The notes under the pieces: model-generated
What the model saw: only the letters and a program-made list of their open reading frames with translations
The model's database searches: none
Told to the model about the DNA's origin: nothing
Made by a program: the position numbers and the translations under genes
Virus record (IMG/VR): IMGVR_UViG_3300043436_005395
Span: 1 to 34,993 of that record
Strand: one strand, 5' to 3'
DNA from: a virus
DNA: 34,993 nucleotides
Shown: positions 881 through 24,492 of the stretch, piece after piece
Numbering within the stretch: position 1 is the first letter of the stretch
Layout: the number at the start of each line of letters is the position of its first letter

Positions 881-924
881 ATTTTTTTTTGAACGATGTT
901 GTATTCATTCGTGTAAATACTAAC

Positions 925-1446
925 ATGAAATGCTTACATTGTCAAGAAGAAACTAAAAATCCAAAATTTTGCTGCCGTACTTGTGCAGCGATATATAATA
1001 ATAAAAAAAGTCCAAAAAGAAAATTAACTAGATTATGTTCATGTTTAGACTGCAAAAGCATAGTAAGAAACTATAGATCTTCTCGATGCGAGACTCACTA
1101 TCAAGAGTATTTAAAATGTAAAAAAGATTCTATACTAGAGACTACAATAGGAGAGTATAGAGACAGAAACAAATTGCTTCATAGTTCATCAACTCATGCA
1201 CACATAAGAGGTTTAGCGAGAAGCTGGTTCAAAGAGTTGACGAAAAAACCATGTGCTGCTTGTGGTTATAATAAGCATGTTGAACTGTGCCATATTAAAG
1301 CGATGGCTTCTTTTACAGAAGATAGCTTAATTAAGGAAGTGAATAACAAAGACAATATCGTTCAATTATGTCCAAATTGCCATTGGGAATTTGACAATGG
1401 CTTATTGAGCAGGCAGCAGGGATGGCAGGACTCGAACCTGCATTGA
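925..1446 (+). CDS. HNH homing endonuclease with zinc-binding N-terminus
   Basis: About 173 aa from the ATG at 925. An in-frame TTG at 889 would add 12 residues but falls in the T-run beside the broken tRNA. The N-terminus has several CxxC pairs (CLHC, CRTC, CLDC), as expected for zinc fingers. The C-terminal part has CAACGYN, then ELCHI and LCPNCHWEFDNG, the pattern of a zinc-bound HNH fold. It lies on the plus strand inside a minus-strand tRNA array, and its last codons run into the T-arm of the tRNA-Arg-like gene. Position and family suggest a free-standing mobile endonuclease. No Shine-Dalgarno sequence or promoter is obvious. Confidence 0.8.
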   Translation: MKCLHCQEETKNPKFCCRTCAAIYNNKKSPKRKLTRLCSCLDCKSIVRNYRSSRCETHYQEYLKCKKDSILETTIGEYRDRNKLLHSSSTHAHIRGLARSWFKELTKKPCAACGYNKHVELCHIKAMASFTEDSLIKEVNNKDNIVQLCPNCHWEFDNGLLSRQQGWQDSNLH

Positions 1447-1975: not shown

Positions 1976-2521
1976 TTAAAATTCTCTGAGTTTTTTCATT
2001 GAATCAGCAATCTTTTTCTTAGTTTCTTCTGAACGAGTCCTACCCTTTAAAGATTCAGCAATCTTCTTTTTGGTTTCTTCTGAACGAATCTTTCCTTTCA
2101 TTGATTCAGAAATCTTTTTCTTATTTTCTGGTAAATGCCTAGATCCTGATTGGATCTGAGATAGCTTCTCTCTGGTTGATTGCAACACCTCAACAGATCT
2201 TAGTTTATCGATTGTTTCTTTTGTGTGCTTTTTACCTTTAAAATGAGGACCACCTTCACCTCCGATACCAAGGTTGTACGTATCACTACGAGATACGAAA
2301 TCTTCAGTGATGAGCGCTTTTTCCATAAGATTCATTTCACATTCATTATCAAAGTCGAATAGTACTTCTTTCGTAAAGTTTTCTCTGCCATACTTTTTTA
2401 TGGCATCTATGATTGCTTTACCAGAGCCAAAGTAAGTATCGTTTGGATTTGTTGTCTGATGTTTACCTATATAAACCTTTTCATTAAGGTTATTCGTAAT
2501 CTTGTAAATTGTGTATCTCAT
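1976..2521 (-). CDS. GIY-YIG homing endonuclease with NUMOD3 repeats
   Basis: 181 aa. The N-terminal GIY-YIG nuclease domain (about 1-90) shows TIYKITN and VYIGKH, with the downstream KYGRENF and E-rich helix of the family. The C-terminal half is Lys/Glu-rich with HTKETIDKL and three KKKI-repeat units, the NUMOD3 DNA-binding repeats of Seg-type phage endonucleases. Such enzymes nick or cut a DNA target and promote their own spread; host-gene function is not expected. It lies between tRNA-Met and a tRNA-like fragment (2559-2590), which may mark its insertion point. The start ATG at 2521 has no clear Shine-Dalgarno sequence. Confidence 0.88.
   Translation of the reverse strand: MRYTIYKITNNLNEKVYIGKHQTTNPNDTYFGSGKAIIDAIKKYGRENFTKEVLFDFDNECEMNLMEKALITEDFVSRSDTYNLGIGGEGGPHFKGKKHTKETIDKLRSVEVLQSTREKLSQIQSGSRHLPENKKKISESMKGKIRSEETKKKIAESLKGRTRSEETKKKIADSMKKLREF
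1979..2122 (-). repeat. 51-bp in-frame tandem repeat (NUMOD3 units)
   Basis: Two full 17-residue units and one partial unit are seen at the C-terminus of the GIY-YIG protein. Each starts KKKI and ends RSEET, and the last breaks off after KKL. The DNA is similar enough between copies to look like recent duplication. Confidence 0.75.
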
Positions 2522-2945: not shown

Positions 2946-3052
2946 GAAAAAAGAAAAAACATTTAAAACCCAAAAAACAATCAACAAACCAACCAAATAA
3001 ACGGATTAGCTTGTCGGAATGAATTTGACGAATATTTTCCCATCAAAATATC

Positions 3053-4072
3053 TTACACATTTTTATCGACATCGTCAATAAAAAAATTATTTATTTTTAA
3101 AATAGCTTGTTTCACAACCATCCACATATCCAAGTATGTATAAGTAGCCAATCTTCCAATGAATAATACTCGATCTTCTTTCTCTGCTAATTTTTTATAT
3201 TGACTATACATTGACATTCCATCTCCGAACGGAATTGGGTAATAAGGTATGTCGCTTGGTCCGCAATCAACTGGATACTCTTTGGTTATCACCGTTTGCC
3301 CGCTGTGATTTGGAGAGAAATAACTATGATCGTATTGACGAGTATTAGCTGCACTTGAATTATTTTCGTTTTGAATAAAGTAAGGCATTTTTTTGTTTGT
3401 TATTTTATGCTCGAACTCTAAAGATCTATACGGCAAGCGCCCAAAACAAAAATCATAGTATTCATCTATTTTGCCAGTAAAAATAATAAAATCACAAGGA
3501 CTTTCTTTCCATTCGTTACTGGAACAGTTTAATCTCACATCAATGCCTTCCAGCATTTTATTAAACATATGGGTATACCCCAACTTTGGAACGCACTGAT
3601 ACTTTTGCCCCTCAAACCAAGTTGGGTCTTCGCAGTCTTTAGTTTTGGGAATGCGATTGGTAATTGATTTTGGTATTTTATCGAAACTAACGCCCCATTG
3701 TTTTTCAGAATAATCTCGGAAAATATAATTCTGAATTTCTTCCGCAGAGAAAGTTTTGCCGATAGCTTTGAAACATGTCTTATCGCTATAAGGCAATGGT
3801 ATTTTCCCAACCACGGTATTACCAATAGGTTGCAACTTAAAATCAATCCATTCTGTAAACTGACTCAAAAACGAAAAAACCTCTTCGTCGTCTGTGTGGA
3901 AAATATGAGGTCCATAATTATGAGTTAAAGTTCCGCAAAAATTAGAATCATAGCAATTACCCCCGACATGAGAGCGAGATTCAAAAATAGTTACATCAAA
4001 CCCTTTTTGCTTCAAAATAAAAGCAGAAACAGCACCAGATAAACCGCAGCCAATTATGTTAATTTTTTTCAT
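3053..4072 (-). CDS. glf: UDP-galactopyranose mutase
   Basis: 339 aa. It converts UDP-galactopyranose to UDP-galactofuranose, using reduced FAD. The N-terminus has the Rossmann FAD motif GCGLSGA (Gly8, Gly10, Gly13) and the family segment VGGNCYD near residue 38. Further family motifs are HNYGPHIFHT, FRDYSEKQWG, YPIPFGDGM and, near the C-terminus, FIGRLATYTYLDM. It is a little shorter than cellular enzymes (about 370-390 aa) but the main regions are present. Its start overlaps the upstream glycosyltransferase stop by 14 nt, so the two are probably made together. It supplies a galactofuranose donor for a neighbouring transferase (inference). Confidence 0.93.
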   Translation of the reverse strand: MKKINIIGCGLSGAVSAFILKQKGFDVTIFESRSHVGGNCYDSNFCGTLTHNYGPHIFHTDDEEVFSFLSQFTEWIDFKLQPIGNTVVGKIPLPYSDKTCFKAIGKTFSAEEIQNYIFRDYSEKQWGVSFDKIPKSITNRIPKTKDCEDPTWFEGQKYQCVPKLGYTHMFNKMLEGIDVRLNCSSNEWKESPCDFIIFTGKIDEYYDFCFGRLPYRSLEFEHKITNKKMPYFIQNENNSSAANTRQYDHSYFSPNHSGQTVITKEYPVDCGPSDIPYYPIPFGDGMSMYSQYKKLAEKEDRVLFIGRLATYTYLDMWMVVKQAILKINNFFIDDVDKNV

Positions 4073-4748
4073 TTAAAAGCTCGAAAGATCTATGATATAC
4101 CAACGATTCTTGATAAACGATATCTGAATATCTGTCCACCAAAGAATCTAAATCTTCATGCATTGATTTGATCAATTCATAAACAAAATCAACCTTACCA
4201 ACAAAACAATTATCAACTTCTATACAATGATTACTAATCCGATCATTTAAAAAAGATATTTTTTTATTTTTAAATTCAGAAATCATTTTTATAATATCTG
4301 AGGTCGAAACATCGAATCTGCTAAATAAATCTGGTCGTATCGATAAAACAGCGTCATACCTCTTTCCACTATCATGGATTTTTTTTATAATCATGTTCTG
4401 CCCCCAAAACATTCTCTTCCAACCAATCAACGGACATTGTGTCTTACAAATAAGACCTTCCAAGTTGCCGTTAAGATTGATTTTTGAATCATCATCGATA
4501 TACAAGTGCTTGATCTTTTTTTGATTGGAAGGATTAAAATAGCTGGTATATCTATACCTATTCACAAGAAATAGATTTTGAAATTCCAAATGTCTCCAGC
4601 TAGAACCCTTTCTAGCTTCAGAAATATTCCAAGTATGAATATGAATAGAAACATCGAATTCTTTGCCCAACAAAAGCAAGAACTTGTCTAATTGATCATC
4701 TTGAAATGAATCTCTAACATGACCACGAATCATTACTGCCAGTTTCAT
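4059..4748 (-). CDS. Putative glycosyltransferase next to UGM
   Basis: 229 aa. The N-terminus MKLAVMIRGHVRDSF followed by DVSIHIHTWN resembles a group of viral and bacterial capsule/LPS-type transferases with an IHTWN signature. The middle part has WGQNMII and YDAVLSIRPDLF, which resembles the nucleotide-sugar/DxD region of such enzymes. It overlaps UGM by 14 nt and starts with an ATGA overlap with the upstream lipoprotein gene. Context suggests a galactofuranosyltransferase, but neither acceptor nor donor can be read from the sequence. Confidence 0.6.
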   Translation of the reverse strand: MKLAVMIRGHVRDSFQDDQLDKFLLLLGKEFDVSIHIHTWNISEARKGSSWRHLEFQNLFLVNRYRYTSYFNPSNQKKIKHLYIDDDSKINLNGNLEGLICKTQCPLIGWKRMFWGQNMIIKKIHDSGKRYDAVLSIRPDLFSRFDVSTSDIIKMISEFKNKKISFLNDRISNHCIEVDNCFVGKVDFVYELIKSMHEDLDSLVDRYSDIVYQESLVYHRSFELLNEKN

Positions 4749-4984
4749 TTAAAATAAGTTTCCCTTTCTAATTTTCTAAAACGAGCATCGGAATGCCAGA
4801 TTTCATCATTTTGTGGAGCATAAACACCATCAATTGTTTGAATCTTTTGATCTTTCTGAAGCCTTAGAGTAGAAGGTTGATAGATGTTCAAGCTCTGATT
4901 TTTCTCGGGAGAGTTCCAAACGCAAGAGGTCTGCACGATCAGCAGAGTTGCTATCACCGCGAGAACGGAGTTTCTCAATCTCAT
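4745..4984 (-). CDS. Small lipoprotein, possible outer-membrane spanin (Rz1-like)
   Basis: The start chosen at 4984 gives MRLRNSVLAVIATLLIVQTSC, a basic n-region, hydrophobic core and Cys, i.e. a lipoprotein signal with a slightly unusual lipobox (Gln at -3). An earlier ATG at 5029 would lengthen the n-region by 15 residues. The mature part is short and hydrophilic and ends with IWHSDARFRKLERE. Most of the gene lies out of frame inside the coding sequence of the 89-aa coiled-coil protein, the arrangement of Rz/Rz1 spanin pairs. The stop overlaps the next start (ATGA). The spanin role is inferred from architecture only. Confidence 0.55.
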   Translation of the reverse strand: MRLRNSVLAVIATLLIVQTSCVWNSPEKNQSLNIYQPSTLRLQKDQKIQTIDGVYAPQNDEIWHSDARFRKLERETYFK

Positions 4985-5099
4985 CGATGATTTCGTTTTG
5001 TCGTTTTTTAGATTTTTCGCGGATGTCATAGTAAAATAATTTGTTTTTTAAAGACAGGAATAATTCTAGTGATTTAATTAAGGATTGAAGTGCGCCCAT
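4830..5099 (-). CDS. Coiled-coil protein overlapping the lipoprotein gene (possible Rz-like partner)
   Basis: 89 aa. A short moderately hydrophobic N-terminus (residues 1-20) is followed by a charged, heptad-rich helix with KSKKRQNEIIDEIEKLRS and LRLELSREKSELEHL. There is no strong transmembrane segment, which weakens an inner-membrane spanin assignment. The downstream lipoprotein gene begins inside it in another frame. It follows the HNH gene by 6 nt. An alternative is an unrelated structural coiled-coil protein. Confidence 0.5.
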   Translation of the reverse strand: MGALQSLIKSLELFLSLKNKLFYYDIREKSKKRQNEIIDEIEKLRSRGDSNSADRADLLRLELSREKSELEHLSTFYSKASERSKDSNN

Positions 5100-5105
5100 A
5101 ATCTT

Positions 5106-5678
5106 TTATAAAAAAGACTGCCATTCTTTTCTAATTTTATTTTTGTTTAAGATTAGAGAAGAGATTGCAGGAATCAATGGAGCAGCAGGAACTTCACCAT
5201 GAACATTAAACCAAGGAGTTTTTGATCCTTTGCGAGAATTGCATGGACGACACGCTAAAACTCTATTCGAGTGATCATCAGTGCCGCCTTTACTGCGAGG
5301 ATGAACGTGATCAATAGTCAAGTCTGAAACGGGATATCTATTCAAGCAATACTGGCACACATTGTCGTGCAGTCGAGCAAGTTCAACAAGAGATAACTTT
5401 TTCTTCTTGGGGCGGCTAAAAAATTTGGTAGAAACAACCATGATAGTTGGAATCCTCCACAAACTTTTTGCGCTGCGCAAGCAAGGTTGATCTTCATAAA
5501 AAGAAGCTAATGTATTCCAAGTATCAAAGCTGTGGAATAGTTGGCTGTCTTGGTCTAACGAAACTACATTGTTTTTAATTAAATGCGTAAACGCTGCTCT
5601 GGCAGTAATCGTATTGATTGGTTGCCAAGCATTGTTAAGCAACAATGTAGTTTTACTGTCTGGACTAACAATGTTCAT
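5106..5678 (-). CDS. HNH endonuclease (McrA-like)
   Basis: 190 aa. The HNH domain lies near 105-155: CQYC, then LTIDHVHPRSKGG with the catalytic His, then N and CRPCNSRKG. The two CxxC pairs form the structural zinc site. The N-terminus (LLLNNAWQPINTI) matches phage and bacterial HNH proteins of the McrA group. The start overlaps the Mom-like gene stop (ATGA). Pairing with a DNA-modifying enzyme suggests cutting of unmodified DNA, or a role in packaging or exclusion; homing is less likely because the gene is embedded in an operon. Confidence 0.82.
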   Translation of the reverse strand: MNIVSPDSKTTLLLNNAWQPINTITARAAFTHLIKNNVVSLDQDSQLFHSFDTWNTLASFYEDQPCLRSAKSLWRIPTIMVVSTKFFSRPKKKKLSLVELARLHDNVCQYCLNRYPVSDLTIDHVHPRSKGGTDDHSNRVLACRPCNSRKGSKTPWFNVHGEVPAAPLIPAISSLILNKNKIRKEWQSFL

Positions 5679-6358
5679 GATTTATGGTATAATGAATAAT
5701 ATTCAGCGCAAGACAAATCTCCACTATTATAAGTTGTTTTTTCAGACTTTGGATACTCACCGATTACTTTATAAGAAAGAGACTCGCGCATTTTTTTCTT
5801 TTGAAGCTTTGATCCTTTAAAAAAGAAATAACGATGCTTGGGAGACGGTTTGATTTTACTGATTTTATTTTGTTTAGCCCAATTAGAGATTTCAGTAACG
5901 CCAAACTTGTCGCGAATTGTCATTGGGTGAGTCGGCTTTCCGTCAATCAAATAAAGAGAATCATGAGATACTGTAGAGCCTGTGTATAGCCAATTGGTGG
6001 ATTGATACACGATACCGCTATGACCATGAGCGGAGTCGGCATAGCTGATCAACGCGCATTGCTTTTCTTTGAGCATCTTCATTGAAGAACTAATTAAAAA
6101 AGATGCAGCATTTTTATGCCCCGAATCAATAACCAATCGAGTCAATTCATACAGCTTAAAGTCTCGATTTTTAAAAGCGTGTTTTTGAATTGCTGGAGAA
6201 GGTTGGCCGAAGCAGCAAACACCGATCAGTACGTCATCTTTATACAGTCCGAAACCGTCCCAAAAAATACCGAGAGTGCGAGAATAATGTTTGTGAGATA
6301 CTATGATTTCACAGGTTTTTTTATCTACCCGCCTGACTTCCATTTTAGAATCATTCAT
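5675..6358 (-). CDS. Mom-like DNA modification protein
   Basis: 227 aa. The family diagnostic stretch is ISYADSAHGHSGIVYQSTNW at about 104-123, then LYTG; ELTRLVIDSG and GVCCFGQPS lie upstream. These resemble the GNAT-fold proteins related to phage Mu Mom, which modify adenine in DNA and so block restriction. The C-terminal Lys/Tyr-rich part (KHRYFFFKGSKLQKKKM) is also typical of that group. It starts 8 nt inside the end of the GT14-like gene and its stop overlaps the HNH start. The exact modified base cannot be deduced. Confidence 0.68.
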   Translation of the reverse strand: MNDSKMEVRRVDKKTCEIIVSHKHYSRTLGIFWDGFGLYKDDVLIGVCCFGQPSPAIQKHAFKNRDFKLYELTRLVIDSGHKNAASFLISSSMKMLKEKQCALISYADSAHGHSGIVYQSTNWLYTGSTVSHDSLYLIDGKPTHPMTIRDKFGVTEISNWAKQNKISKIKPSPKHRYFFFKGSKLQKKKMRESLSYKVIGEYPKSEKTTYNSGDLSCAEYYSLYHKS

Positions 6359-7160
6359 TAGAGAAAATATAGTCGTTGTCGATAATGGTGAGAGGATGAA
6401 CTTTCCTAATAAAGAGATTACTCGTATTTCTCAAAGAGTCAATAATTCTATGATTAATTTTTTCATAGGATTTTGGCTCCGCTTTAGCTCCATAAGCAAT
6501 TAGTTTTTTAGAACTATTCAACTTCCAGTTAAAATGACAGTTAGACTTTATTTGAAATTCCAAACCAAAATGATTTGCTACAAGAGGAAAATACATTTCA
6601 TCAGCAAATGAAACTTTATCAGTACTAAACCATTTGCGCAAATTGCTTTCTTTAGAAAGAAAGAAAGAGGCGTCACTTCTTCGGCAGATAAACCATTGAG
6701 ATACAAACAAAGCATTTTTAATTTTAAAAGGCGAATATTTAATACGAACTGGATTTTGTATAAGTTCAAATCTTTTGGGAGTAAGATGCTTTTCTGCAAC
6801 ACACTCAGCAAATGACATTGTATCAAAATCGTTCTTGATTAAATTACAAGTAGTCTCTATATCGTAGAGAGGGCAGTGAGAATCGCTGATTAAAACAAAA
6901 TATTCATTATCTGGATCTTTTAAAGCTTCAGCCATTAAATTTATAGAAGCCTTAACCAATGAGTAATGTCCCCATTCTGTCTCTGTTATCCTGTTTTTCG
7001 GAATACAAAAATCAGAAAAATAATGATTAGGAGGAAGATCATATTTATTGTGAATATATAGATTGTATATATCTTTTAACGCAGGATCAAAAAACCTACT
7101 CATCGTTTCGTTTTTGATGAAAGATGAGTAGGTTAATGCTAGAAACGCGACCTTCGACAT
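6351..7160 (-). CDS. Core-2/I-branching-type glycosyltransferase (GT14-like)
   Basis: 269 aa. Family features are FVLISDSHCPLYDIE in the first half, ALFVSQWFICRRSDASFF, and FADEMYFPLV with the acidic residues of the catalytic region. GT14 enzymes add GlcNAc or xylose from UDP-sugars; bacterial and phage members act on surface polysaccharide or protein glycans. No signal peptide or membrane segment is seen, so it is probably cytosolic. It starts by a TAATG overlap with the preceding small gene. A good candidate for a glycan branching step in this cluster. Confidence 0.72.
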   Translation of the reverse strand: MSKVAFLALTYSSFIKNETMSRFFDPALKDIYNLYIHNKYDLPPNHYFSDFCIPKNRITETEWGHYSLVKASINLMAEALKDPDNEYFVLISDSHCPLYDIETTCNLIKNDFDTMSFAECVAEKHLTPKRFELIQNPVRIKYSPFKIKNALFVSQWFICRRSDASFFLSKESNLRKWFSTDKVSFADEMYFPLVANHFGLEFQIKSNCHFNWKLNSSKKLIAYGAKAEPKSYEKINHRIIDSLRNTSNLFIRKVHPLTIIDNDYIFSNE

Positions 7161-7447
7161 TACCCCAAATTAATTTTAATAGAAATTGAAGAGAAATCTT
7201 TGCAACGAGAAATAATTTCTTCTGTAGAAAGCTGACCGACTATACTTTTCAATTCAGAAACCGCTGTGCAAAAATCAACGAAAGAGCTATCTTGAATTAA
7301 AATTTGTTTTGTAGTGTGATCAAAAATGCCAGAATCAAAAACTTCATAGCGATTCTCTGAATCAATACAAGCTTCAATAGGATCGCGCAAAGTATTGCCT
7401 ACTACATAACGAAATAAATCATTTGAATCTACTTTAATAATAGTCAC
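7160..7447 (-). CDS. Small acidic protein of unknown function
   Basis: 95 aa, GTG start overlapping the previous stop (GTGA). No domain is recognised. It is rich in Ile, Ser and Asp, with no transmembrane segment or signal. The stop TAA shares its last base with the start of the GT14-like gene, so it is translated within the operon. The tight coupling supports it as a real gene. Confidence 0.65.
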   Translation of the reverse strand: MTIIKVDSNDLFRYVVGNTLRDPIEACIDSENRYEVFDSGIFDHTTKQILIQDSSFVDFCTAVSELKSIVGQLSTEEIISRCKDFSSISIKINLG

Positions 7448-7644
7448 TTTCCGCGCAGATCGAAAATGATTTTTTCAGAAGATTCCGAAATTCCATTGAA
7501 TGAAACTTCAGTGACATACCCATTGACTCGACGAGCGCAATCAATAGCCCAATTACTAGCACCCTGCAATAGAGAGCTATAAGACTGCTGAACATTTCCC
7601 TTGCTGTCAAAGGCATAATACTTGATTTCCTTAGTATTTTTCAT
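7444..7644 (-). CDS. Small protein of unknown function, first gene after an internal promoter
   Basis: 66 aa (MKNTKEIKYYAFDSKGNVQQ...). It may fold as a small beta-rich domain; no known motif is seen. A TTGACA-N17-TAAGCT promoter lies 50-80 nt upstream and the next gene is coupled through GTGA. A competing frame at 7434-7616 is a shadow. Confidence 0.65.
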   Translation of the reverse strand: MKNTKEIKYYAFDSKGNVQQSYSSLLQGASNWAIDCARRVNGYVTEVSFNGISESSEKIIFDLRGK

Positions 7645-7697
7645 TCTTTGTTTTTTCTGTGTTTGTCTTTGTTTGTCTGTGTTTCTTACTGAATAGA

Positions 7698-7726
7698 AGC
7701 TTACCTGATGAAAGTGGATTTGTCAA
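7698..7726 (-). promoter_or_regulatory. Sigma-70-type promoter
   Basis: The -35 TTGACA (7721-7726) and -10 TAAGCT (7698-7703) have 17-bp spacing. It overlaps the last codons of the 86-aa gene and reads into the 66-aa gene and the GT14/Mom/HNH genes behind it. Confidence 0.55.
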
Positions 7727-7983
7727 GCAGATTTCTCAGAATTTTCATTGGAATAAAATTCAAAAGCCATTTGGCCAACATTCGTATTGTCCGTGATAAA
7801 GCCTTCGATTAAAATTGAATTCTCATTCACAATAAATGTTTTCTTGGGTTCAAAAATGTATTTAATTTCACCGTTCATCAGTTGATACATTCCATCTCCA
7901 ACTGGAGAGATATTAAATGTAACATTCTGTCCCATAGGGAAATCAGGGAAAACTGGATTAGTTGCTGCGATTTTAATATTCAT
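7723..7983 (-). CDS. Small beta-rich protein of unknown function
   Basis: 86 aa. It begins MNIKIAATNPVFPDFPMGQN and alternates hydrophobic and polar residues, suggesting a small beta-sandwich. No signal peptide or known motif is seen. Its ATG directly follows the sulfotransferase stop (TAA-ATG). After its stop there is a 78-nt gap, the largest in this operon, where the internal promoter lies. Confidence 0.65.
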   Translation of the reverse strand: MNIKIAATNPVFPDFPMGQNVTFNISPVGDGMYQLMNGEIKYIFEPKKTFIVNENSILIEGFITDNTNVGQMAFEFYSNENSEKSA

Positions 7984-8649
7984 TTAAAATGTGTAGTTGA
8001 ATTTTTGTATATCTTCATTATAAAGGGAAGACACTAGATTTTTAGTATAATTATCGTAATATTTTTGGTATTTATCGTGATCTGAAGAGTTTATGTGCGG
8101 CAATTCTGTAGATATATGAGAAGCATTTATTTCGAGAATCATTGAACGAAAGTCTTCTGCAAGATTTTCGAACCTAAGTATTTTTTGAACTTCAAAAGCT
8201 CCAGAGATCCATAGGTGCTGCTGCTGAATTGGGAAAAAGTATAAATCATTTTGATTCTTTCTCTCTTCGCAAATCAAACAAAACTCTTTGAAAGAAGGCG
8301 GCGACTGTAGATTAAATAATCGCCATAGTTCATTTTGCAAAACAAAAGAATACATGGAAACGAAACGATCCCAAGGATTTCTTACCACTGCAAAAGAAAA
8401 ATAGTTGTTAACGTTGACTGGAATTAGTTGTTTAATTTCAGATGGCTTAGCATGGGTCGTGTCAAAAAAATTACGATATAGAGGATTGCTCGCATTTGCG
8501 CGAAATAATGATTCATGTTTTTTGATTAGATTGAAATCTCCTAAATGCTTGTAAATAGAAGAACTAGCGTTTTTAGGAATACGCACAAAGATAAGATGCA
8601 ACACCCATTTTTGGTTTTGCGTAGGGAAAAACGCTAATTCAGGAATCAC
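7984..8649 (-). CDS. Carbohydrate sulfotransferase-like protein
   Basis: 221 aa, GTG start overlapping the upstream stop (GTGA). The 5'-phosphosulfate loop is seen as FVRIPKNASSSI near residue 22, and the 3'-phosphate site as VVRNPWDRFVSMYSF near 88. Both belong to the Sulfotransfer_2 family, which moves sulfate from PAPS to sugars. A late YFFPIQQQHLW segment also matches carbohydrate sulfotransferases. No membrane anchor is present, unlike the Golgi enzymes. PAPS would come from the host. Together with UGM and the transferases, it points to a sulfated glycan product (inference). Confidence 0.82.
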   Translation of the reverse strand: MIPELAFFPTQNQKWVLHLIFVRIPKNASSSIYKHLGDFNLIKKHESLFRANASNPLYRNFFDTTHAKPSEIKQLIPVNVNNYFSFAVVRNPWDRFVSMYSFVLQNELWRLFNLQSPPSFKEFCLICEERKNQNDLYFFPIQQQHLWISGAFEVQKILRFENLAEDFRSMILEINASHISTELPHINSSDHDKYQKYYDNYTKNLVSSLYNEDIQKFNYTF

Positions 8650-9164
8650 TTCTTTAAAAGTGCATGTTTGATGTTTGTCAAAATGTCAGTCATCTTGATG
8701 AGTGACACGATATCTTGTCGTCCACGACGTTGATACGCTGTGTAAAGAGGCATCTTAACATCCACGTTCAGCTTTGTGAGGTCACAGAGGCGCTCACAGA
8801 GCCTCGTCAACAGTTTTCGATCAACGATAACGAAATCGTTTTCTCGTTCGAAAGCGACGGCATCTGCGCCTCCGTAAAGCCAACCGCGAGATCCTCGCAC
8901 ATTCTTAAATTCCACCCATACCAAATCATCGTTAACACTCGAATCCGCACGCTTGACTTTCTTTCGAGATTTAACCTCCACAGAAAACTTCAATTGATCA
9001 TGAGTATGAGTAACATGGAAATCGATGTGATTGAACTCATCTTGGCGAGATGCCACAACTACTTCCATACCGTTTTTTTTAGCAGCGCTAACGAAACTGT
9101 TTTCGGCGTTTTCCCCAAGAGCGAATGAAGCACCATCTTTGTCGTATTTATTTCTATAAGCCAT
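8646..9164 (-). CDS. PD-(D/E)XK nuclease-like protein
   Basis: About 172 aa from the ATG at 9164 (TAATG overlap with the upstream stop); an earlier in-frame ATG at 9176 is possible. The core HIDFHV ... FSVEVKSRKK gives the D ... ExK catalytic pattern of the restriction-endonuclease fold. The rest (FVIVDRKLLTRLCERL) fits alternating strand and helix. It may be a phage DNA repair or recombination nuclease. Base composition is more GC-rich than its neighbours, which suggests separate acquisition. A TTGACA-containing promoter candidate lies just upstream. Confidence 0.55.
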   Translation of the reverse strand: MAYRNKYDKDGASFALGENAENSFVSAAKKNGMEVVVASRQDEFNHIDFHVTHTHDQLKFSVEVKSRKKVKRADSSVNDDLVWVEFKNVRGSRGWLYGGADAVAFERENDFVIVDRKLLTRLCERLCDLTKLNVDVKMPLYTAYQRRGRQDIVSLIKMTDILTNIKHALLKK

Positions 9165-9598
9165 TATGTATTCCATAATACGCAGATTTTGTGATTGTCA
9201 AGCTTTATTTTCGCTGTTTCGTCTCTTCGCTGAATCATTTTGATCAAATGCTGCCGTTTATGCTTTCGCTGTATTTCGGAAAAATAATTCTTGACTTGAG
9301 GATTTATTTGGTGGAAAAATAATCTAAATTTCTTAAATTCCCCAATCACCTCAAAAGGAGAACCAAACAAGAATTCAATTGTTGCTGTTTCATTTTCTAC
9401 GGACAAAGCAATAAAAAAGTTTGCGCTAGTATAAATCACAGAATGCGCGAATAAATGATGAATATACTCTTTGATTTTGATCACAGACAAGTTTCTCGAC
9501 GGCAAGCAGCAAAAATCATAAGGCTTTGATTTCAAAAAAAAGTTTATTATTTTTGTTTCTAAAACATTGTCAAGCTGTTTTATTAGTGTAAAGTTCAT
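9164..9598 (-). CDS. Protein of unknown function, first gene of the operon
   Basis: 144 aa. It starts MNFTLIKQLDNVLETKI. The middle has HHLFAHSVIYTSANFFIALS and a Phe-rich strand pattern. The C-terminal third is basic (KHKRQHLIKMIQRRDETAKI). The fold could be of the small acyltransferase type seen in phages, but no catalytic motif is clear. It lies divergently from the tail gene at 9632 with a 33-bp gap. Confidence 0.6.
   Translation of the reverse strand: MNFTLIKQLDNVLETKIINFFLKSKPYDFCCLPSRNLSVIKIKEYIHHLFAHSVIYTSANFFIALSVENETATIEFLFGSPFEVIGEFKKFRLFFHQINPQVKNYFSEIQRKHKRQHLIKMIQRRDETAKIKLDNHKICVLWNT
9175..9201 (-). promoter_or_regulatory. Possible promoter before the PD-(D/E)XK gene
   Basis: The -35 TTGACA (9196-9201) precedes -10 TATTAT (9175-9180) with a short 15-bp spacer; TTATGG at 17 bp is an alternative. 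A start of transcription here would fall near 9168, favouring the ATG at 9164 as translation start. Confidence 0.35.
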
Positions 9599-9609
9599 GT
9601 CTATTATGT

Positions 9610-9617
9610 ATTATAAT
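9610..9617. promoter_or_regulatory. Shared divergent -10 element ATTATAAT
   Basis: The palindrome ATTATAAT presents TATAAT on both strands, in the 33-bp gap between divergent genes. No good -35 exists at 17 bp for the plus strand. The following leader (AAATAACTTATG) resembles that of the gene at 26524, so this may be a phage late promoter type. Confidence 0.4.
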
Positions 9618-9631
9618 GTGTAAAATAACTT

Positions 9632-12022
9632 ATGGGACAAGGACAGGATAAAATTGCAAGTAGTTTAATAGATTTACAGCCTACGGCTATAGTAGAACTA
9701 TTTCAATTATATTTCAACCCAGTTGATAAACCAAATGACTTCATGCCTTTTCATGGCGGTGCCATTTTCCAAAATTCTATTACATGGCAAACCAAAGAAT
9801 ACATTCCAATTCCAGTCGAATCTGAAGGATTCGAAGTAACAGCTAATGGTCAGTTGCCAAGACCAAAAATTAGAATATCGAATAAAGATTATAAAATGAC
9901 TCAGCTACTGCTGAATAATAATGATTTTCAATTCGCTAAGTTGATAAGAAAAAGAACTTTTGTAAAATATCTAGATGATGTAAACTTCGATGGAGGAAAT
10001 CCTTGGGGACAAGCAGATTCTTCTGCTGAATTAAGCAATGATACATTTGTCATTGGCCAAAAAACTGCCGAAAATAAAGTCTTCGTCGAATTTGAATTAA
10101 CGTCTCCACTTGATTTGGAGAATTTTGAAGTTAATGCTAGATTGTTGATGTCGAGATATTGCTCTTGGTATTATAGAGGAAATGGATGCAATTACGCTGG
10201 ACCTCCATTAGAAACAGAATACGGGCAGGAAATTCAAATGAATTCGAAGTCGCGAAATAACTGGGCAAATTTATCATCTTCGTCTTTTTCTGGGGAATGG
10301 ATAACTGGGCGTGTTTATGAAAGTGGAGATCCTGTTTATTTGGAAAATAGAAAAATAATAATTAATCCAGTTTTACAAAATCAAAATAATGAAAATGTTC
10401 CTGAATATGCTAAAATTTGGTATGTAGCACAAACGGGTCACACATCAACATCATCCACACAGCCAGACAATAATGAAACTTATTGGACAAGAGACGGTTG
10501 CAATAAAAAACTAAACGGATGCAAGAAAAGATTCCAACCATCTGAAATTCAAGTACTTCCTTCCAACAGTTATTCTGTATCGGGTTACTTTATCGATCTG
10601 TCTCATAAGCAACTATATAATAGCAACAACATTTCTTCTCAAGCTTCTATAACTGGATCGAGCGTTATATCTGGATCTGCATTTAGAAACATTGCTGATG
10701 GATTAACTGGCGATGCTGGTGGTCAAAAAAAGACATTGGATACAGGGTTAGCATGGATCAGCACTGGAACTGCCGATCCTTGGATACAACTCGAATGGAA
10801 TTCGCCAAAAATCATCAATCGTATTGATATTTACGATAGGTATTCCACCTCTGTTGATTTTAATACAGCTAATATTAAATTATTTAGTGGTGCCACCCAA
10901 TTGACTAATGCGAATCTTACTATCAATAATAACGGTTCAAGAACTACAACTGGATTCACAAACCAAACAGTTACTAGAATATTAATCAGTGGAAGCGGTT
11001 CAGACACTAATGCTGGTTTAGCAGAAGTGGCTGTATTTGAGCCTTCTGGATTAGGCTTATACAATGATTCTTTTAAGACCAGCGGAATATACGCTTCAGA
11101 AGATTTACACATGGCTACTTGGGTTCAGTTTCCAAGTGGTGTTTCAAGATCAGATCAACTGCTGAATATTTTCCATAATGTAAAACCAAACAATCAATAC
11201 AGCGGAATTAATCTTTACGTCAGCGGAAATGATAATCTTGTATTAAACTTCGCAACTGTTTTGGTGAGCGGAACTGTTCCACAATATATTGTCACTCCGA
11301 GAACTATTACAATGCCTTGGGATGCGACTTCTCTAAAAGCTTTGCATTTAGAAATTTATGGCGGCAAAACTAACGGAACATCTATTACCAATTTCCCAAA
11401 TGGAGAAATAAAATTATCCGATGAAGACAATCTTGAATCTCGATATACTTTAGCGGTGCGTAACACAGGTGAAAAAATATCTGGAGAGTTCTTCTTATTT
11501 AAGAATCCAAGTTTCACAGGTGGTATGACTGATTTGTTTTTTGCAGTTAATAATTGGCAATTTTCAACTGGCGATGTTGCTACTCCAGTTCCTAATAATT
11601 CCAACATAACTTCCAACATTCAATTAACAAGTAATTTAAAACTTGGATCGACTGCTATATGGACTGGCAAAAGTGGTATTGATTATCGAAAGAAGTTTTT
11701 CAATCGTGATACGATAAATATCTGGAATGAAGACAAAGAAAAAACAAGCCCAAGAAATTATGATGAACTCACTGGAGATAATCGTATTTTAAAAACTGGA
11801 TTGTTTGCTTGGTGGGATATGAATTTAACAGACACTCCTACTTACAGAGTAGAAGCATCTAATAACGCTGCTCAAATTATTTATTTAAGCGGCGAATACG
11901 TCAACTCAATTGAAAGTTACGATCAAAACGCATTTATTTCAAAAGAAGCTTACATACCACAAACACCAAAAAATTACCTGCCATTTGGCGGATTCCCTGG
12001 AACAGATAGATATGGAAGATAA
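9632..12022 (+). CDS. Minor tail protein L homolog fused to carbohydrate-binding-like domains
   Basis: 796 aa, against about 230 for lambda gpL. Residues 1-300 match the gpL fold and its cysteine-bound cluster: SRYCSWYYRGNGCNYAG (Cys about 176 and 186) and DGCNKKLNGCKKRF (Cys about 290 and 298). The pairs are separated by an insertion. About 337-470 looks like an F5/8-type C (discoidin) domain, with WIQLEWNSPKIINRIDIYDR and ILISGSGS. About 475-690 is a beta-rich laminin-G/LamG-like region. gpL acts at the tail tip beneath the J hub. The added domains may bind host surface sugars. First gene of the tail-tip operon. Confidence 0.82.
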   Translation: MGQGQDKIASSLIDLQPTAIVELFQLYFNPVDKPNDFMPFHGGAIFQNSITWQTKEYIPIPVESEGFEVTANGQLPRPKIRISNKDYKMTQLLLNNNDFQFAKLIRKRTFVKYLDDVNFDGGNPWGQADSSAELSNDTFVIGQKTAENKVFVEFELTSPLDLENFEVNARLLMSRYCSWYYRGNGCNYAGPPLETEYGQEIQMNSKSRNNWANLSSSSFSGEWITGRVYESGDPVYLENRKIIINPVLQNQNNENVPEYAKIWYVAQTGHTSTSSTQPDNNETYWTRDGCNKKLNGCKKRFQPSEIQVLPSNSYSVSGYFIDLSHKQLYNSNNISSQASITGSSVISGSAFRNIADGLTGDAGGQKKTLDTGLAWISTGTADPWIQLEWNSPKIINRIDIYDRYSTSVDFNTANIKLFSGATQLTNANLTINNNGSRTTTGFTNQTVTRILISGSGSDTNAGLAEVAVFEPSGLGLYNDSFKTSGIYASEDLHMATWVQFPSGVSRSDQLLNIFHNVKPNNQYSGINLYVSGNDNLVLNFATVLVSGTVPQYIVTPRTITMPWDATSLKALHLEIYGGKTNGTSITNFPNGEIKLSDEDNLESRYTLAVRNTGEKISGEFFLFKNPSFTGGMTDLFFAVNNWQFSTGDVATPVPNNSNITSNIQLTSNLKLGSTAIWTGKSGIDYRKKFFNRDTINIWNEDKEKTSPRNYDELTGDNRILKTGLFAWWDMNLTDTPTYRVEASNNAAQIIYLSGEYVNSIESYDQNAFISKEAYIPQTPKNYLPFGGFPGTDRYGR

Positions 12023-12422
12023 AATCTTAAATAAGTCCTTTATGATTGTCAAACATTTTTTGACAAATCATTCGAATAGAAATTTATCCAATGAAATTTG
12101 TGGATTTATTGGCTATGACGAAAAAACCAAATGTTATGTAGCTACCATTGAAAAAAACCAAGCCCAAGATCCTAAATCTTTTTTTTCAATCAATCCCGCG
12201 AGTTATTTAAAGTTTAAATCTGAATATTCTTTGATGGGTGTTTTTCATAGTCATGTTGTTGGCGATGAGTCTCCTTCTGAGTTTGATATCAAGATGTCTG
12301 AATCTTGTTGCTTAAGTTTTATCATATATTCTATCAATACGAATAAATTTCATATTTATGAACCTAAAAATCAAGATTATGATGTAAAGATACTAGAAAG
12401 GATTAAGGGCAAACTTAAATGA
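12012..12422 (+). CDS. Tail tip protein K homolog, JAMM peptidase domain only
   Basis: 136 aa from the ATG at 12012, which overlaps the L stop by 11 nt; an earlier in-frame ATG at 11910 lies deep in L and is unlikely. The JAMM zinc site is complete: Glu28 in NEICGF, then His79, His81, Ser89 and Asp92 in FHSHVVGDESPSEFD. Lambda gpK joins a JAMM/MPN domain to an NlpC/P60 domain; here NlpC/P60 is absent, so any peptidoglycan-cutting activity must be elsewhere. It is followed by gpI with a 4-nt ATGA overlap. Confidence 0.82.
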   Translation: MEDKILNKSFMIVKHFLTNHSNRNLSNEICGFIGYDEKTKCYVATIEKNQAQDPKSFFSINPASYLKFKSEYSLMGVFHSHVVGDESPSEFDIKMSESCCLSFIIYSINTNKFHIYEPKNQDYDVKILERIKGKLK

Positions 12423-13111
12423 CTATTATCAATTTACATGGTATATTAGCGCGTGAATTCGGCAAGGAATTTACGATGCATATCGAAAAACCAAAGCAAG
12501 CGATTGAGGCTATCGATGCTAACAAACCATTGTTTAAAAAGCGCATTTTGGAATTGTCACAACAAGGAATACACTACAGTATTCTTGTGGATGGAGAAAA
12601 CATAGCTCATCCAGAACAGTTGGAAATAAAAAAAGCAATCACTGTGGTGGATTTAACTCCTGTTATTTGTGGGCAAGGATTCACGGCATTGATTACAACA
12701 ATCGCAGGAGCTTTAACTGGAGGCGCTGGCGCTGTTGGTGCCGCTCTTGTTACTGGATCAGTGGCGGCTGGGTTTACTGCCACTGCTTTGACTTCATTCA
12801 TTGGTGGAGCATTAAACATGATTGCTGTCACCCTTATTCAGCAAGCTTTAGCTCCATCGCAAAAACCACAACGCACAGAAGCTCGCATCAGCGGAGCAAA
12901 AGAATCATTTTTAATTAGTTCAAAAGGAAACTTAGCGGAGCAAGGTGTTCCTGTTCCAGTTGGTTATGGAAGATTAAGAATTGGTACTTCAATCGTCCAA
13001 AGTACAGTTAAATCGTATCCTCAAAGACAAAGAATATCGAACGCTTTATTTGGCAAAAATCAACCAACTGATACAGATCTAGCTCTACAAGAGCAAAATA
13101 CAATAACATGA
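12419..13111 (+). CDS. Tail assembly protein I homolog
   Basis: 230 aa. An N-terminal beta-grasp-like domain (about 1-80, with INLHGILAREFG and ILVDGENI) is followed by a Gly/Ala-rich hydrophobic stretch at about 95-145 (GALTGGAGAVGAALVTG). A short conserved tail has NLAEQGVPVPVGYGRLRIGT. This order is that of lambda gpI, which is needed for tail-tip assembly. It overlaps K and J by 4 nt at each end. Confidence 0.85.
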   Translation: MTIINLHGILAREFGKEFTMHIEKPKQAIEAIDANKPLFKKRILELSQQGIHYSILVDGENIAHPEQLEIKKAITVVDLTPVICGQGFTALITTIAGALTGGAGAVGAALVTGSVAAGFTATALTSFIGGALNMIAVTLIQQALAPSQKPQRTEARISGAKESFLISSKGNLAEQGVPVPVGYGRLRIGTSIVQSTVKSYPQRQRISNALFGKNQPTDTDLALQEQNTIT

Positions 13112-16100
13112 AGCATTTAATTAAGAAGAATTTATTTCAAGGCGGTGGCAAAAGTAAGCCAAAGCCAACTCCCGCTATTCTCAAGCCACCCAAGCTTGAT
13201 AATTATGAAATATTAAACTCTTACAGCGTTGCTGAGATTGTTGATTTGATTTCTGATGGACCAATCGAAGGACTTGTCAATCAAAATGGTCAGACCCTTG
13301 GAAAACAAGCTAGTATTCTGCAAGGTGTTTATTTAGACAATACACCTATCCAGCAAACTTCTGTATATTTCCCGATTAATGCTAGTGACGTTATCGGAAG
13401 TCTTGAAATTTCAAGCTCATTAAATGTATTGGGAGATATATACTATAGTGATAATTCTTATAAAACTTATTTTCATAAGCCTTTTGTAGTTTTAAATGGA
13501 CTAAATCTTACAACAAAAATACCTGAGAGAAGATTATTAGCAACTCAAACTAAACAAGGCGTAGCTAATGCTAAAGATGAGTATTATTCTCCAATAGTAG
13601 ACGATATATTAGTGGATGGTATTTCTAAAAATGGATGGGAATTAAAAGGTAACACTAAAAATGTTAAGCCTATTTCTGGCCCTATTTATTTTGAAAATTC
13701 TGCATCAAAATTAGAAGTCCATTATATTGATCCAAATCAAAGTTTATTCGCCAGCGATACTTTATTGCCAAAAACTTTATTGTCAAAACTAGAAACTTCT
13801 CTTAAAGAACTTTCAGGCGATTCACCTGATCAAGAGAAGTTCTTTAATAATCAAGTATTGAAAAAAATTCAAGAGTTGAAAGGAAAAGCGAGCAAAGAAA
13901 AATTCAACTGGAATTCAAAAAACACTGTATATATCGTAGTTGAAATTGCGGATAAAAACAATCCAAAAGAATTAAATGACGGTGCAGTAGCAACGAAATC
14001 TATCTTTGATAGTAAAGGTGTTTTTAAAACAGTTTCTTTTGAACTCGAAAACTTTAGTAGAAATATACCTCAAAATCAAATCTACAAACTACTTGTTCCT
14101 ACAGTTGATACTGATAATCAATATACAAATAAAGTTTATGGATGTTTAGTGATTGCAATACCAACAACATATAGATCCACAAAAGGTAATGTCCAAAATT
14201 TTGGAGCAAATAGTTCAGTGAATTCATACGATTATTATTATAATCGCCAATTCATCAGTGATTTATCTGGATTCATTACTGAAAATACTAAATTAATATT
14301 CAAGATAGGCGAAGAATCTTCTTATCAAAACAAAGCAGCAAAATATAATTTCTTAAATATATCATGTGAGTTAAAAAATGGACAAGAGTATCAAGATCCA
14401 TTAGAGTATTTCAAAAATATTTATGTTGATCACGATTATACAACTCCATTGAGTGGTCCATTTATAGCTGGATATGAAACTAGACGAATTGATGGTAATT
14501 GGAAAACCAATGGTTTTGGCCCACAAAATCCTAAATTGAATCTGTCTTTGAATGAACAAGAAGGTTCCAATGACTTAAGAGCAGCAACAGTTGGGAATGC
14601 GCAACAAAGCTATTCCGAATGGAATAATGATAATGAATATGATGAAGATGCTATAGCAATCACTCATACAATTGAAAATCCTGAAGTTTCTTCTGTATTT
14701 TTTACTTTAGCTATCAGCAATTTAAGCGATACTGTTGCAAAAAGTACTAGTGATCAACGAGAGCTTGGCGATAAAGTTCCTGCTATTGTAGAAATTGAAG
14801 TCGAATGGGGTAAGATATCCAATGGGGAAATATCTAATGCTAAGACTAAAAAATATGCTGTTATAGCAATGGTTGAAGGGCAAATGTTGATTGATTTTGG
14901 ATCTCCAGATTTAGAATCAATAGAAAATGATTATTTTAAAGCCGTTAGAGATGTTTCAAACATATCAAAATCAACTTTCGATCAAGCTGTATTGTCAAAA
15001 CCTTTTATACTTCCAAAGTTAACTAATCAAGAAAATCCATCATCTGTTAAGAGATATATAAAAGTCAAAAAGCTTTCTACAGAAACTAACTCCGTCTTGC
15101 TTAAAAAAGAAATTGCGCTGTATAAAGTTACAGAAATTATTGAACAAAATCTTTCATATCCATTTTCCGCAATCGCTGGAATTAAAATCGATGCAAGAAC
15201 ATTTGGTTCAGTTCCAGAAAGAACTTATGATTGTAGATTAAAGCTGGTTAATGTTCCAATGAATTATTATCCATTATCTGCCGATAGATCTGACAATAGA
15301 TACATTAAATCTGCTTCTCAATACACTTCTCCAAACTTAGTTTATGATGGAGACTGGGATGGACAATTTAAAATGGAATGGACAGACAATCCAGCGTGGA
15401 TTATTTATGATCTTTTAACTAGCAAAAGATATGGATTAGGTGCTTATATTGATGAAAGCCAAATCAATAAATGGGAGCTTTATAAAATTGGAAGATTCTG
15501 TGATGCAGTTGATTCAAATGGTTATTTCCAAGGAGTATCGGATGGTATCGGAGGATTGGAGCCAAGATATTCGTGCAATATTCTATTCAAAGATCAAACT
15601 AAAATATTTGATGCAATCAATATCGTAGCAAGCTTATTTAGAGGTAGCGTTTTCTTTAGCAACTCAGAAATTCACTTTTTGGATGATAGACCAAAAGAAC
15701 CAATAGCTTTATTCACAAACTCAAACGTAAAAGACGGAGTATTTAATTACATTAATAATCGTAGGGATTTGCAATTTAATACTGTTGAAGTTGTTTATTT
15801 AGATCGCTTTGACAACTATCAAACCAAAATTGAATACGTTCAAGACGAAGCTGATATCAGAAAGAGAGGAGTATTCAAAACGGACATAAACACGCTTGGA
15901 GTGACCTCTAGAGCGATGGCACGACGCATAGGACAGCACTTGATCTATCAGACTATCAAAGAGAATCAGAGCATAGAATTTTCTGCTGGACTCGATTCTT
16001 TGCTGTGCCGACCTGGCGATTTAGTAATCGTAGAAGATGAAATGAAAACCATGTCCACTAACTATGGACGTATTCTAGAAAAAAACATTGCGGAAAAAAC

Positions 16101-17331
16101 TTTAAGAATTGATAATTTCTACGACAGTGGATCATTTACTGGAAGAGTAACTGTTTATACACCAACTGGATATACTACTAATGAAGAGCTAAATGATATA
16201 GCTATATTAAACAGAAATAGAGTTCCGTATTTTGATGTCTTGACTGGATTGATTGAACCTTCTGATGATGTCTTGACTGGTCGTTATTATTTCTCTGGTT
16301 ATGTCGGTGGATATCCTACTGGATATCCAAACATAGGAAATCCATTTCCTACTCAATTTCCTCTGTATACTGGTTCTGGATATTCTGGTCATAGTTTATT
16401 CTGTTATTATAATACTGGGTATACTGGGTTTGTTTTCGCAACAGGATTACCATATCAAGACAACGATACATTCGATAAAGTTATAACCAACACTGGAATA
16501 TCTGATATAACATATTTTGATACTGGTGTTGATTCTACTGGATTCCGTTATAGCAGCGCTTCTTCAACCAAAAGAACTGCTCCATCAGGAAATGTTGCAG
16601 ATAGAATTGATGTTCCATTTGATAGTTATCATGGAATTTTAGAAAGCGAAATAAATACTATAAACAATCCTCAGATAACGACATTCAATGTAACTGGTCA
16701 CGATAGTAATTACGCTTATGGAAGTGAATTATTTCTAGATCAAAACGATATAAATATAAATCTATTACAGTTCGTTGGAGAAGGAAGTGTATATCGTATT
16801 GAAAGAAAAAATGCGTCTGATCAAATTTATAAAATAATAAGCATTAGAGAACAGAATCAAAACGAATACAGTGTCTCAGCTTCGAAGTATGATACTGGCA
16901 AATTTCAAGAAATTGAAAATCACATTACATCAGACTTCTTGCCGCAAACATACGCTAATTCAGTTGCTCAAGCAGCAATCGGAATTAATAAATTAGCCGC
17001 ACCAGTTATTACACTGTTTAATACTGGGACATTTGGAACTACCTTTAGTTTAACTGGCACATGGTCAGGAGTTGCGAATGCGACTGGATATACTGCTCAA
17101 ATCATAAATAATGACAGCTCTGATACATACAGACAAACTTCTTCATCTCTCAACTTCGGAGTGACTGGATTGATTTATGGAGGACGTTGGCTATTAAATG
17201 TTCAAGCATTGGGTAATAATACTACATATACATCATCTGATATCGCTACATCTGGAAAACTAATTTTAAATACTCCAATACCATCAACTCCATATGATAG
17301 AGCGTTTATCACCAACTTTAATGTAAAATAA
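13108..17331 (+). CDS. Central tail tip protein J homolog (host specificity)
   Basis: 1407 aa, longer than lambda J (1132). The start has YSVAEIVDLISDGPIEGLVN, typical of J. The hub core near 760 has DNPAWIIYDLLTSKRYGLGA, then RSVERTY-type strands and the conserved ARRIGQHLIYQTIKENQSIEF and LLCRPGDLVIVEDE. Two large insertions are seen: about 170-480, and a Tyr/Thr/Gly-rich stretch near 1050-1150 (YTGSGYSGHSLF, YNTGYTGFVF). The last 110 residues look like a fibronectin III domain. J forms the tip that meets the receptor. The stop is 1 nt before the next start. Confidence 0.9.
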   Translation: MKHLIKKNLFQGGGKSKPKPTPAILKPPKLDNYEILNSYSVAEIVDLISDGPIEGLVNQNGQTLGKQASILQGVYLDNTPIQQTSVYFPINASDVIGSLEISSSLNVLGDIYYSDNSYKTYFHKPFVVLNGLNLTTKIPERRLLATQTKQGVANAKDEYYSPIVDDILVDGISKNGWELKGNTKNVKPISGPIYFENSASKLEVHYIDPNQSLFASDTLLPKTLLSKLETSLKELSGDSPDQEKFFNNQVLKKIQELKGKASKEKFNWNSKNTVYIVVEIADKNNPKELNDGAVATKSIFDSKGVFKTVSFELENFSRNIPQNQIYKLLVPTVDTDNQYTNKVYGCLVIAIPTTYRSTKGNVQNFGANSSVNSYDYYYNRQFISDLSGFITENTKLIFKIGEESSYQNKAAKYNFLNISCELKNGQEYQDPLEYFKNIYVDHDYTTPLSGPFIAGYETRRIDGNWKTNGFGPQNPKLNLSLNEQEGSNDLRAATVGNAQQSYSEWNNDNEYDEDAIAITHTIENPEVSSVFFTLAISNLSDTVAKSTSDQRELGDKVPAIVEIEVEWGKISNGEISNAKTKKYAVIAMVEGQMLIDFGSPDLESIENDYFKAVRDVSNISKSTFDQAVLSKPFILPKLTNQENPSSVKRYIKVKKLSTETNSVLLKKEIALYKVTEIIEQNLSYPFSAIAGIKIDARTFGSVPERTYDCRLKLVNVPMNYYPLSADRSDNRYIKSASQYTSPNLVYDGDWDGQFKMEWTDNPAWIIYDLLTSKRYGLGAYIDESQINKWELYKIGRFCDAVDSNGYFQGVSDGIGGLEPRYSCNILFKDQTKIFDAINIVASLFRGSVFFSNSEIHFLDDRPKEPIALFTNSNVKDGVFNYINNRRDLQFNTVEVVYLDRFDNYQTKIEYVQDEADIRKRGVFKTDINTLGVTSRAMARRIGQHLIYQTIKENQSIEFSAGLDSLLCRPGDLVIVEDEMKTMSTNYGRILEKNIAEKTLRIDNFYDSGSFTGRVTVYTPTGYTTNEELNDIAILNRNRVPYFDVLTGLIEPSDDVLTGRYYFSGYVGGYPTGYPNIGNPFPTQFPLYTGSGYSGHSLFCYYNTGYTGFVFATGLPYQDNDTFDKVITNTGISDITYFDTGVDSTGFRYSSASSTKRTAPSGNVADRIDVPFDSYHGILESEINTINNPQITTFNVTGHDSNYAYGSELFLDQNDININLLQFVGEGSVYRIERKNASDQIYKIISIREQNQNEYSVSASKYDTGKFQEIENHITSDFLPQTYANSVAQAAIGINKLAAPVITLFNTGTFGTTFSLTGTWSGVANATGYTAQIINNDSSDTYRQTSSSLNFGVTGLIYGGRWLLNVQALGNNTTYTSSDIATSGKLILNTPIPSTPYDRAFITNFNVK

Positions 17332-24107: not shown

Positions 24108-24492
24108 AAAAGAAATACTGCACGATATAGTTGTGAAACTTGCTCCCAGCAAAATATCAAACGCAGGAGTTGGAGTTTTTGCTTTAACGCCGATTGAAAA
24201 AGGCGAAATCGTATTTCGTCCAGACAAAAATGAATTTATTGAATGGGAAGCATTGAAGGGTATCGAATCGAATATTTTTGCACACATCAAAAGTGTTTGC
24301 AATCATAATGATTATGGTTTTTGGATGGACTGTTCTATCAATAAAATAGGTGCTGCTTACTATGTCAATCATTCCAATGCGCCAAATTTACATCATAATT
24401 TGGAACCAGATGTCTTTACAGCAATCAAGAATATCCAAATCGGGGAAGAATTAACCTGTGAATATTTACCAAAAGAGATTGATTGGGTGTAA
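24085..24492 (+). CDS. SET-domain protein (putative lysine methyltransferase)
   Basis: 135 aa, single domain. The S-adenosylmethionine and pseudoknot motifs of SET are clear: AGVGVFALTPIEKGEIVF near 27-44, YYVNHSNAPNLHHN near 91 (the NHSxxPN motif), and GEELTCEYLP near 121. The post-SET cysteines are missing, as in compact viral SET proteins. The catalytic Tyr of the ExxxxYG-like end is present in TCEYLP. The substrate is unknown; it lies between structural genes, so a virion or host protein is possible. Confidence 0.85.
   Translation: MTPKQKIKKEILHDIVVKLAPSKISNAGVGVFALTPIEKGEIVFRPDKNEFIEWEALKGIESNIFAHIKSVCNHNDYGFWMDCSINKIGAAYYVNHSNAPNLHHNLEPDVFTAIKNIQIGEELTCEYLPKEIDWV

Follow-up and report, generated by a model that had tools for sequence, protein, structure and literature searches.

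We conclude with moderate confidence that two adjoining genes in the genome of an uncultured tailed phage form a cassette for making and attaching galactofuranose (Galf), with the virion as its likeliest acceptor. The cassette pairs a UDP-galactopyranose mutase (UGM) with gtX, which is probably a galactofuranosyltransferase, and it sits at the end of an operon of 13 minus-strand genes that also encodes a sulfotransferase and a second glycosyltransferase. The window, that is, the whole stretch of DNA analysed here, is a 34,993-base IMG/VR virus fragment. Its relevant features are given below, with the operon genes in the order in which they are read.

9632..17331, plus strand: divergent lambda-like tail-tip module (PHROG matches up to E=3.9e-109)
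9164..9598, minus strand: first operon gene, an ORF compared across relatives
8646..9176, minus strand: PD-(D/E)XK-type nuclease, by synteny the constant partner of the sulfotransferase
7984..8649, minus strand: PAPS-dependent carbohydrate-type sulfotransferase (Sulfotransfer_2, PF03567 E=4.2e-16)
7723..7983, minus strand: small conserved protein directly downstream of the sulfotransferase
7444..7644, minus strand: small conserved protein, from comparison across relatives
7160..7447, minus strand: small conserved protein of 95 aa (cluster 11), which occurs near UGM in T4-like contigs too
6351..7160, minus strand: core-2/I-branching-type glycosyltransferase (GT14, "Branch"; PF02485 E=2.7e-20)
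5675..6358, minus strand: Mom-like DNA modification protein (PF25680 E=3.3e-35; phrog_1384 E=1.7e-48)
5106..5678, minus strand: HNH endonuclease (PF01844 E=4.2e-14)
4830..5099, minus strand: Rz-like coiled-coil protein, a tentative spanin partner (ORF, comparison across relatives)
4745..5029, minus strand: tentative Rz1-like small lipoprotein (hydrophobic N-terminus plus Cys, out-of-frame overlap, kept in relatives)
4059..4748, minus strand: gtX, from a phage family not yet characterised; putative galactofuranosyltransferase (AlphaFold model, UGM linkage)
3053..4072, minus strand: UDP-galactopyranose mutase (UGM, glf; PF03275 E=1.9e-52)
3062..4742, minus strand: extent of the gtX-UGM insertion, from alignment to relatives with an empty site
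19854-21026: GT9 (E=1.6e-6)
21023-22945: GT4-like gene, below the Pfam cut-off

The operon runs from 9598 to 3053, and its genes mostly abut or overlap by up to 14 nt (gtX/UGM, 14 nt; Mom/Branch, 8 nt; Rz1-like/gtX, HNH/Mom, and sulfotransferase/nuclease, 4 nt each). The spanin-like pair shares 200 nt, and a gap of 78 nt lies between 7723 and 7644. An earlier note, made from the sequence alone, had reported a UGM, at least two transferases, and a PAPS-type sulfotransferase translated from overlapping frames at 3053-8649. The intact minus-strand ORFs are indeed there and their frames overlap or abut; UGM, Branch, and the sulfotransferase have domain matches, and besides Branch the other putative transferase is gtX, whose model is GT-A-like. 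The GT9 and GT4 genes that the note placed nearby both exist but belong to other transcription units at a distance of more than 10 kb, and its sugar-kinase-like gene (31538-32608) is an APH-type phosphotransferase. Mom, the HNH protein, the nuclease, and the spanin-like pair were absent from it.

A second IMG/VR contig (L001) matches the first 9,700 window bases at 100% identity, and therefore an assembly error in the operon region is unlikely. The operon is transcribed divergently from the tail-tip module, which encodes a minor tail protein, a JAB protein, a tail assembly protein, and the central fibre J, and a tRNA cluster lies beyond its other end. Between these two landmarks it forms a mosaic island, a patchwork of separately acquired modules, and judging from its neighbouring genes it is probably expressed late. 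The tmRNA is of the standard RF00023 type and the relatives of J are diverse; neither yields a host assignment. A blastn search of window positions 3000-10000 against the phage collection returned no match, and tblastn searches of the 95-aa protein, Branch, and gtX against the cultured phages in it were likewise negative.

The GLF domain of the window UGM scored 178 bits against a family cut-off of 26.3. When the protein was aligned to Escherichia coli UGM (1i8t), R170, R278, R340, Y346, and D348 were conserved, which we take to be catalytic or active-site residues of the family, and residues 8 to 13 (GCGLSG) form the FAD-binding GxGxxG motif. Family and residues together suggest that this enzyme would make UDP-galactofuranose. 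An "ADDT" Pfam match inside UGM was weak (E=0.14) and was taken as noise. The subfamily to which the window UGM belongs is common in uncultured phages, with 119 confirmed stretches.

Pfam and PHROG searches with gtX gave no match, a PDB sequence search with its profile gave no real match, and a scan of its alignment over bacterial and archaeal genomes recovered no relative. An AlphaFold model built from an alignment of 19 sequences (pLDDT 88) weakly matched PDB structures with GT-A and nucleotidyltransferase folds (best E=1.1e-3, TM 0.4-0.5) and, in a Foldseek comparison with BFVD, matched viral proteins that are DUF7796 members or annotated glycosyltransferases (E down to 8e-8). UGM directly adjoins gtX, in either gene order, in all 38 viral loci found by a search with gtX, a count in which UGM is partial in two loci, cut off by the contig end, and which distant homologues without UGM could escape, as the search patterns were derived from UGM-linked sequences. 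The modelled fold and the strict UGM linkage make it probable that gtX represents an uncharacterised phage family of galactofuranosyltransferases paired with UGM.

Within the operon, gtX-UGM is a clean 1.68-kb insertion. The site is empty in four relatives (L082, L083, L084, and L091), which align on both flanks and carry 18 to 26 nt in place of window positions 4742-3062; three of these contigs are >90% identical to the window in the operon region. UGM was not found in the records (30 to 112 kb) of ten relatives. Because of the empty sites and the missing UGM, we regard the Galf genes as a separate insertion and the sulfotransferase as part of an older unit. In the UGM tree, the other gtX-linked UGMs form one clade (100/97) that excludes the window UGM, which sits on a long branch, and forcing it into that clade was mildly rejected (AU p=0.03). 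The tree suggests that the gtX-UGM pairing was probably formed, or reassembled, more than once, which is the pattern expected of a donor-maker and its transferase. The part of the earlier proposal that invoked a Galf-adding module is thus well supported, but the single sulfated-Galf pathway that it envisaged was not established here. Co-inheritance of all four glycan genes was rejected on the strength of the empty sites and the relatives in which UGM is missing.

The sulfotransferase matched the PHROG annotation "galactose-3-O-sulfotransferase" (E=9e-23) and keeps both PAPS motifs (5'-PSB, RIPKNASSS; 3'-PB, FAVVRNPWDRFVSMY), which are conserved in its homologues. In the adjacent nuclease, E25, H50-x-D52, and [E/D]-x-K69 are invariant in 17 homologues; a PDB sequence search with its profile gave no real match. 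Among relatives gathered with these two proteins as bait, the nuclease is present in about 50 viral loci, some of which share one contig, and the sulfotransferase overlaps or abuts it in about 40 of them. Nearly all of the closer loci adjoin the tail-tip module. From this distribution, the nuclease and sulfotransferase appear to be the old core of the operon.

The slot downstream of the sulfotransferase is occupied in two ways. It holds Mom with or without Branch in 10 loci (some with a Mom remnant only) and a 307-aa GT-B protein in 25 others, and the two alternatives never occur together. The model of the GT-B protein had T4 beta-glucosyltransferase as its best PDB match (1bgt, E=2.3e-8, TM 0.63), with T4 alpha-glucosyltransferase close behind; a PDB sequence search with the profile of this BGT-like protein gave no real match. 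The BGT-like protein occurs only in distant relatives, and no DNA glycosyltransferase was found in the window operon. Branch scores well above its Pfam cut-off, and the Mom family domain (PF25680) scored 122 bits against a cut-off of 27.1. Mom would be a separate DNA-protection function that shares the operon transcript. The Mom and BGT-like genes that accompany the sulfotransferase are a sign of DNA chemistry in the operon, an observation that runs against a virion target.

Related combinations recur in T4-like phages. In one group of T4-like contigs, a tail fibre gene is followed by UGM, one or two gtX copies, and then neck protein genes, and gtX, UGM, and Branch stand in a row in four T4-like loci (L174, L175, L176, and L187). 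In a separate T4-like group (within L028-L068), the tail-fibre genes are followed by tightly packed frames that encode UGM together with one or two sulfotransferases and often a GT2 protein (e.g., L051 8065-10984). A single clade of sulfotransferase-linked UGMs was rejected (p=9e-37), and the T4-like sulfotransferase-GT2-UGM arrangement uses a different UGM lineage. No sulfotransferase was found in the gtX-UGM T4-like records that were checked, and sulfation therefore does not seem integral to the Galf module. The survey of gene co-occurrence proposed in the earlier note thus had a divided outcome. Within the window's own lineage the genes for the most part do not travel together, with UGM and gtX missing in close relatives and Branch and Mom coming and going, but elsewhere gtX-UGM, gtX-UGM-Branch, and a T4-like succession of two sulfotransferases, GT2, and UGM do recur.

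All three targets considered in the earlier note (virion, host envelope, and DNA) are possible, and the virion is the one that we favour. In the sequence of events that we propose, gtX-UGM would have been inserted downstream of the spanin-like genes of an operon with an old nuclease-sulfotransferase core. UGM would convert host UDP-galactopyranose to UDP-galactofuranose, and the GT-A-like gtX would transfer Galf from UDP-Galf to an acceptor, most likely the virion and especially its tail-tip or fibre proteins. A further sugar may come from Branch, and the sulfotransferase, drawing on host PAPS, may act on the Galf product or on another substrate. We favour virion decoration because these genes adjoin tail-fibre, tail-tip, and lysis-type genes in several unrelated arrangements and because the cassette, which has no flippase, polymerase, ligase, lipid-carrier transferase, or export genes, brings no means of lipid-carrier assembly or export. 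A fibre-gene neighbourhood is also compatible with a host-envelope target.

A less probable reading, which we nevertheless rank first among the alternatives, is that no pathway joins the operon genes beyond gtX-UGM, the remaining ones being independent morons that each have a role of their own and share only a promoter. In keeping with this reading, nuclease-sulfotransferase, Mom, Branch, and UGM-gtX are each distributed differently within one lineage, but the recurrence elsewhere of gtX-UGM-Branch and sulfotransferase-GT-UGM suggests that Branch and sulfotransferases can share the pathway of UGM. This reading overlaps with virion decoration, which leaves the substrates of Branch and the sulfotransferase open.

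Somewhat more doubtful is remodelling of the host envelope, in which UGM, gtX, Branch, and the sulfotransferase would alter host LPS or EPS during infection and so keep rival phages from adsorbing, or progeny from adsorbing to debris. Sugar and glycosyltransferase clusters of jumbo cyanophages have been read in this way (PMC7824862), the host cell wall was the annotated target of the UGM in Agrobacterium phage Atu_ph04 (PMC6630229), and Branch and UGM are patchy among relatives. Against it stands the missing assembly machinery of the cassette, and the operon shared with lysis-type genes and the adjoining tail genes in unrelated phages suggest late expression, when an envelope change would be of little use.

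We consider it improbable that the joint product of UGM, gtX, Branch, and the sulfotransferase is a sulfated, Galf-containing virion glycan and that these genes are one of several convergent phage systems, a reading under which siphophages and T4-like phages alike pair sulfotransferases with glycosyltransferases beside tail-fibre genes. Least probable of all is hypermodification of phage DNA by the sulfotransferase and sugar enzymes together with Mom or the BGT-like enzyme, which would fit the Mom gene, the alternation of Mom and BGT-like proteins, and the nuclease that adjoins the sulfotransferase throughout the window's lineage, but not the carbohydrate-sulfotransferase affiliation of Sulfotransfer_2, the position of gtX and Branch outside the known DNA glycosyltransferase families, or the T4-like UGM and sulfotransferase units that adjoin fibre genes without Mom.

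Parts of this operon have precedents. Phage-borne glf genes have been annotated in cultured phages, including Atu_ph04 (PMC6630229), and T4-like Aeromonas phages, IME13, and Atu_ph04 (phrog_9677) encode the same enzyme family; the window UGM is only ~34% identical to that of the closest isolates and is paired here with gtX. The "capsular polysaccharide modification" clusters described in cyanophages and jumbo phages by Iyer et al. in 2021 (PMC7824862) likewise combine sugar-nucleotide enzymes with several glycosyltransferases and are sporadic and polymorphic between relatives. Unlike those clusters, the window has a small donor-plus-transferase unit within an operon that includes Mom, nucleases, and lysis-type genes, and the words sulfotransferase and galactopyranose do not appear in the main text of that paper. 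PAPS-type sulfotransferases are also encoded by Stenotrophomonas phage DLP6, OM43 phage MAGs, and members of phrog_3347; in the siphophage lineage of the window the gene is fixed beside the PD-(D/E)XK-type nuclease, and elsewhere it stands in tandem with GT2-UGM. The T4 beta-glucosyltransferase and Mom systems are echoed by Mom in the window operon and by the BGT-like fold that fills its slot in distant relatives, but, unlike in those systems, nothing places the products of UGM, gtX, or the sulfotransferase on DNA. In our literature search, which was incomplete in coverage, neither gtX nor any of these gene combinations was found described.

Overall, gtX is a candidate family of phage galactofuranosyltransferases, defined by its strict linkage to UGM. 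Phage sulfotransferases, whose function has been stated to be unclear (PMC10580990), repeatedly adjoin glycosyltransferases and tail genes. If virions prove to be without Galf or sulfate, these genes would indicate modification of the host surface or of DNA; if virions carry either, the added chemistry may serve to mask or retarget phage tails.

The Mom-like DNA modification gene within the operon varies among relatives of the window. Only a remnant of this gene is left in the close relatives (L082 to L084), and a gene resembling the T4 beta-glucosyltransferase gene takes its place in distant relatives.

window 5675-6358, Mom-like DNA modification gene within the operon
L130:11435-12355, GT-B protein of 307 aa in a viral locus, with a fold resembling T4 beta-glucosyltransferase

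The gene for the 307-aa protein, which has about 25 homologues, is flanked by the sulfotransferase on one side and by lysis-type genes on the other, and its product is possibly a DNA glycosyltransferase.

A small protein of 95 to 98 aa is common to the window's siphophage lineage and T4-like phages, with UGM or a lysis amidase encoded nearby.

window 7160-7447, first example
L051:11919-12215, second example, in a T4-like contig

Elsewhere in the window are auxiliary and other genes.

window 23469-24107, "ferredoxin"-type auxiliary gene (PHROG match)
window 24085-24492, SET-domain-like protein predicted from its sequence
window 32898-34991, ClpA/B-like ATPase predicted from its sequence

The window's own tRNA cluster forms its left end, and the two genes among the tRNA genes, which vary from relative to relative, probably encode homing-type endonucleases, judging from their sequences.

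window 1976-2521, putative homing-type endonuclease
window 889-1446, putative homing-type endonuclease
L001:18974-19352, phage-encoded tmRNA (RF00023)
L082:18868-19246, phage-encoded tmRNA (RF00023)
L001:16777-16972, group I intron inside the tRNA cluster

Both tmRNA genes adjoin arrays of about 20 tRNA genes. Because tRNA-Leu(UAA) is uninterrupted in the matching area of L082 and was not called in L001 (a contig that includes the window's first 9,700 bases at 100% identity), the intron may split this tRNA.
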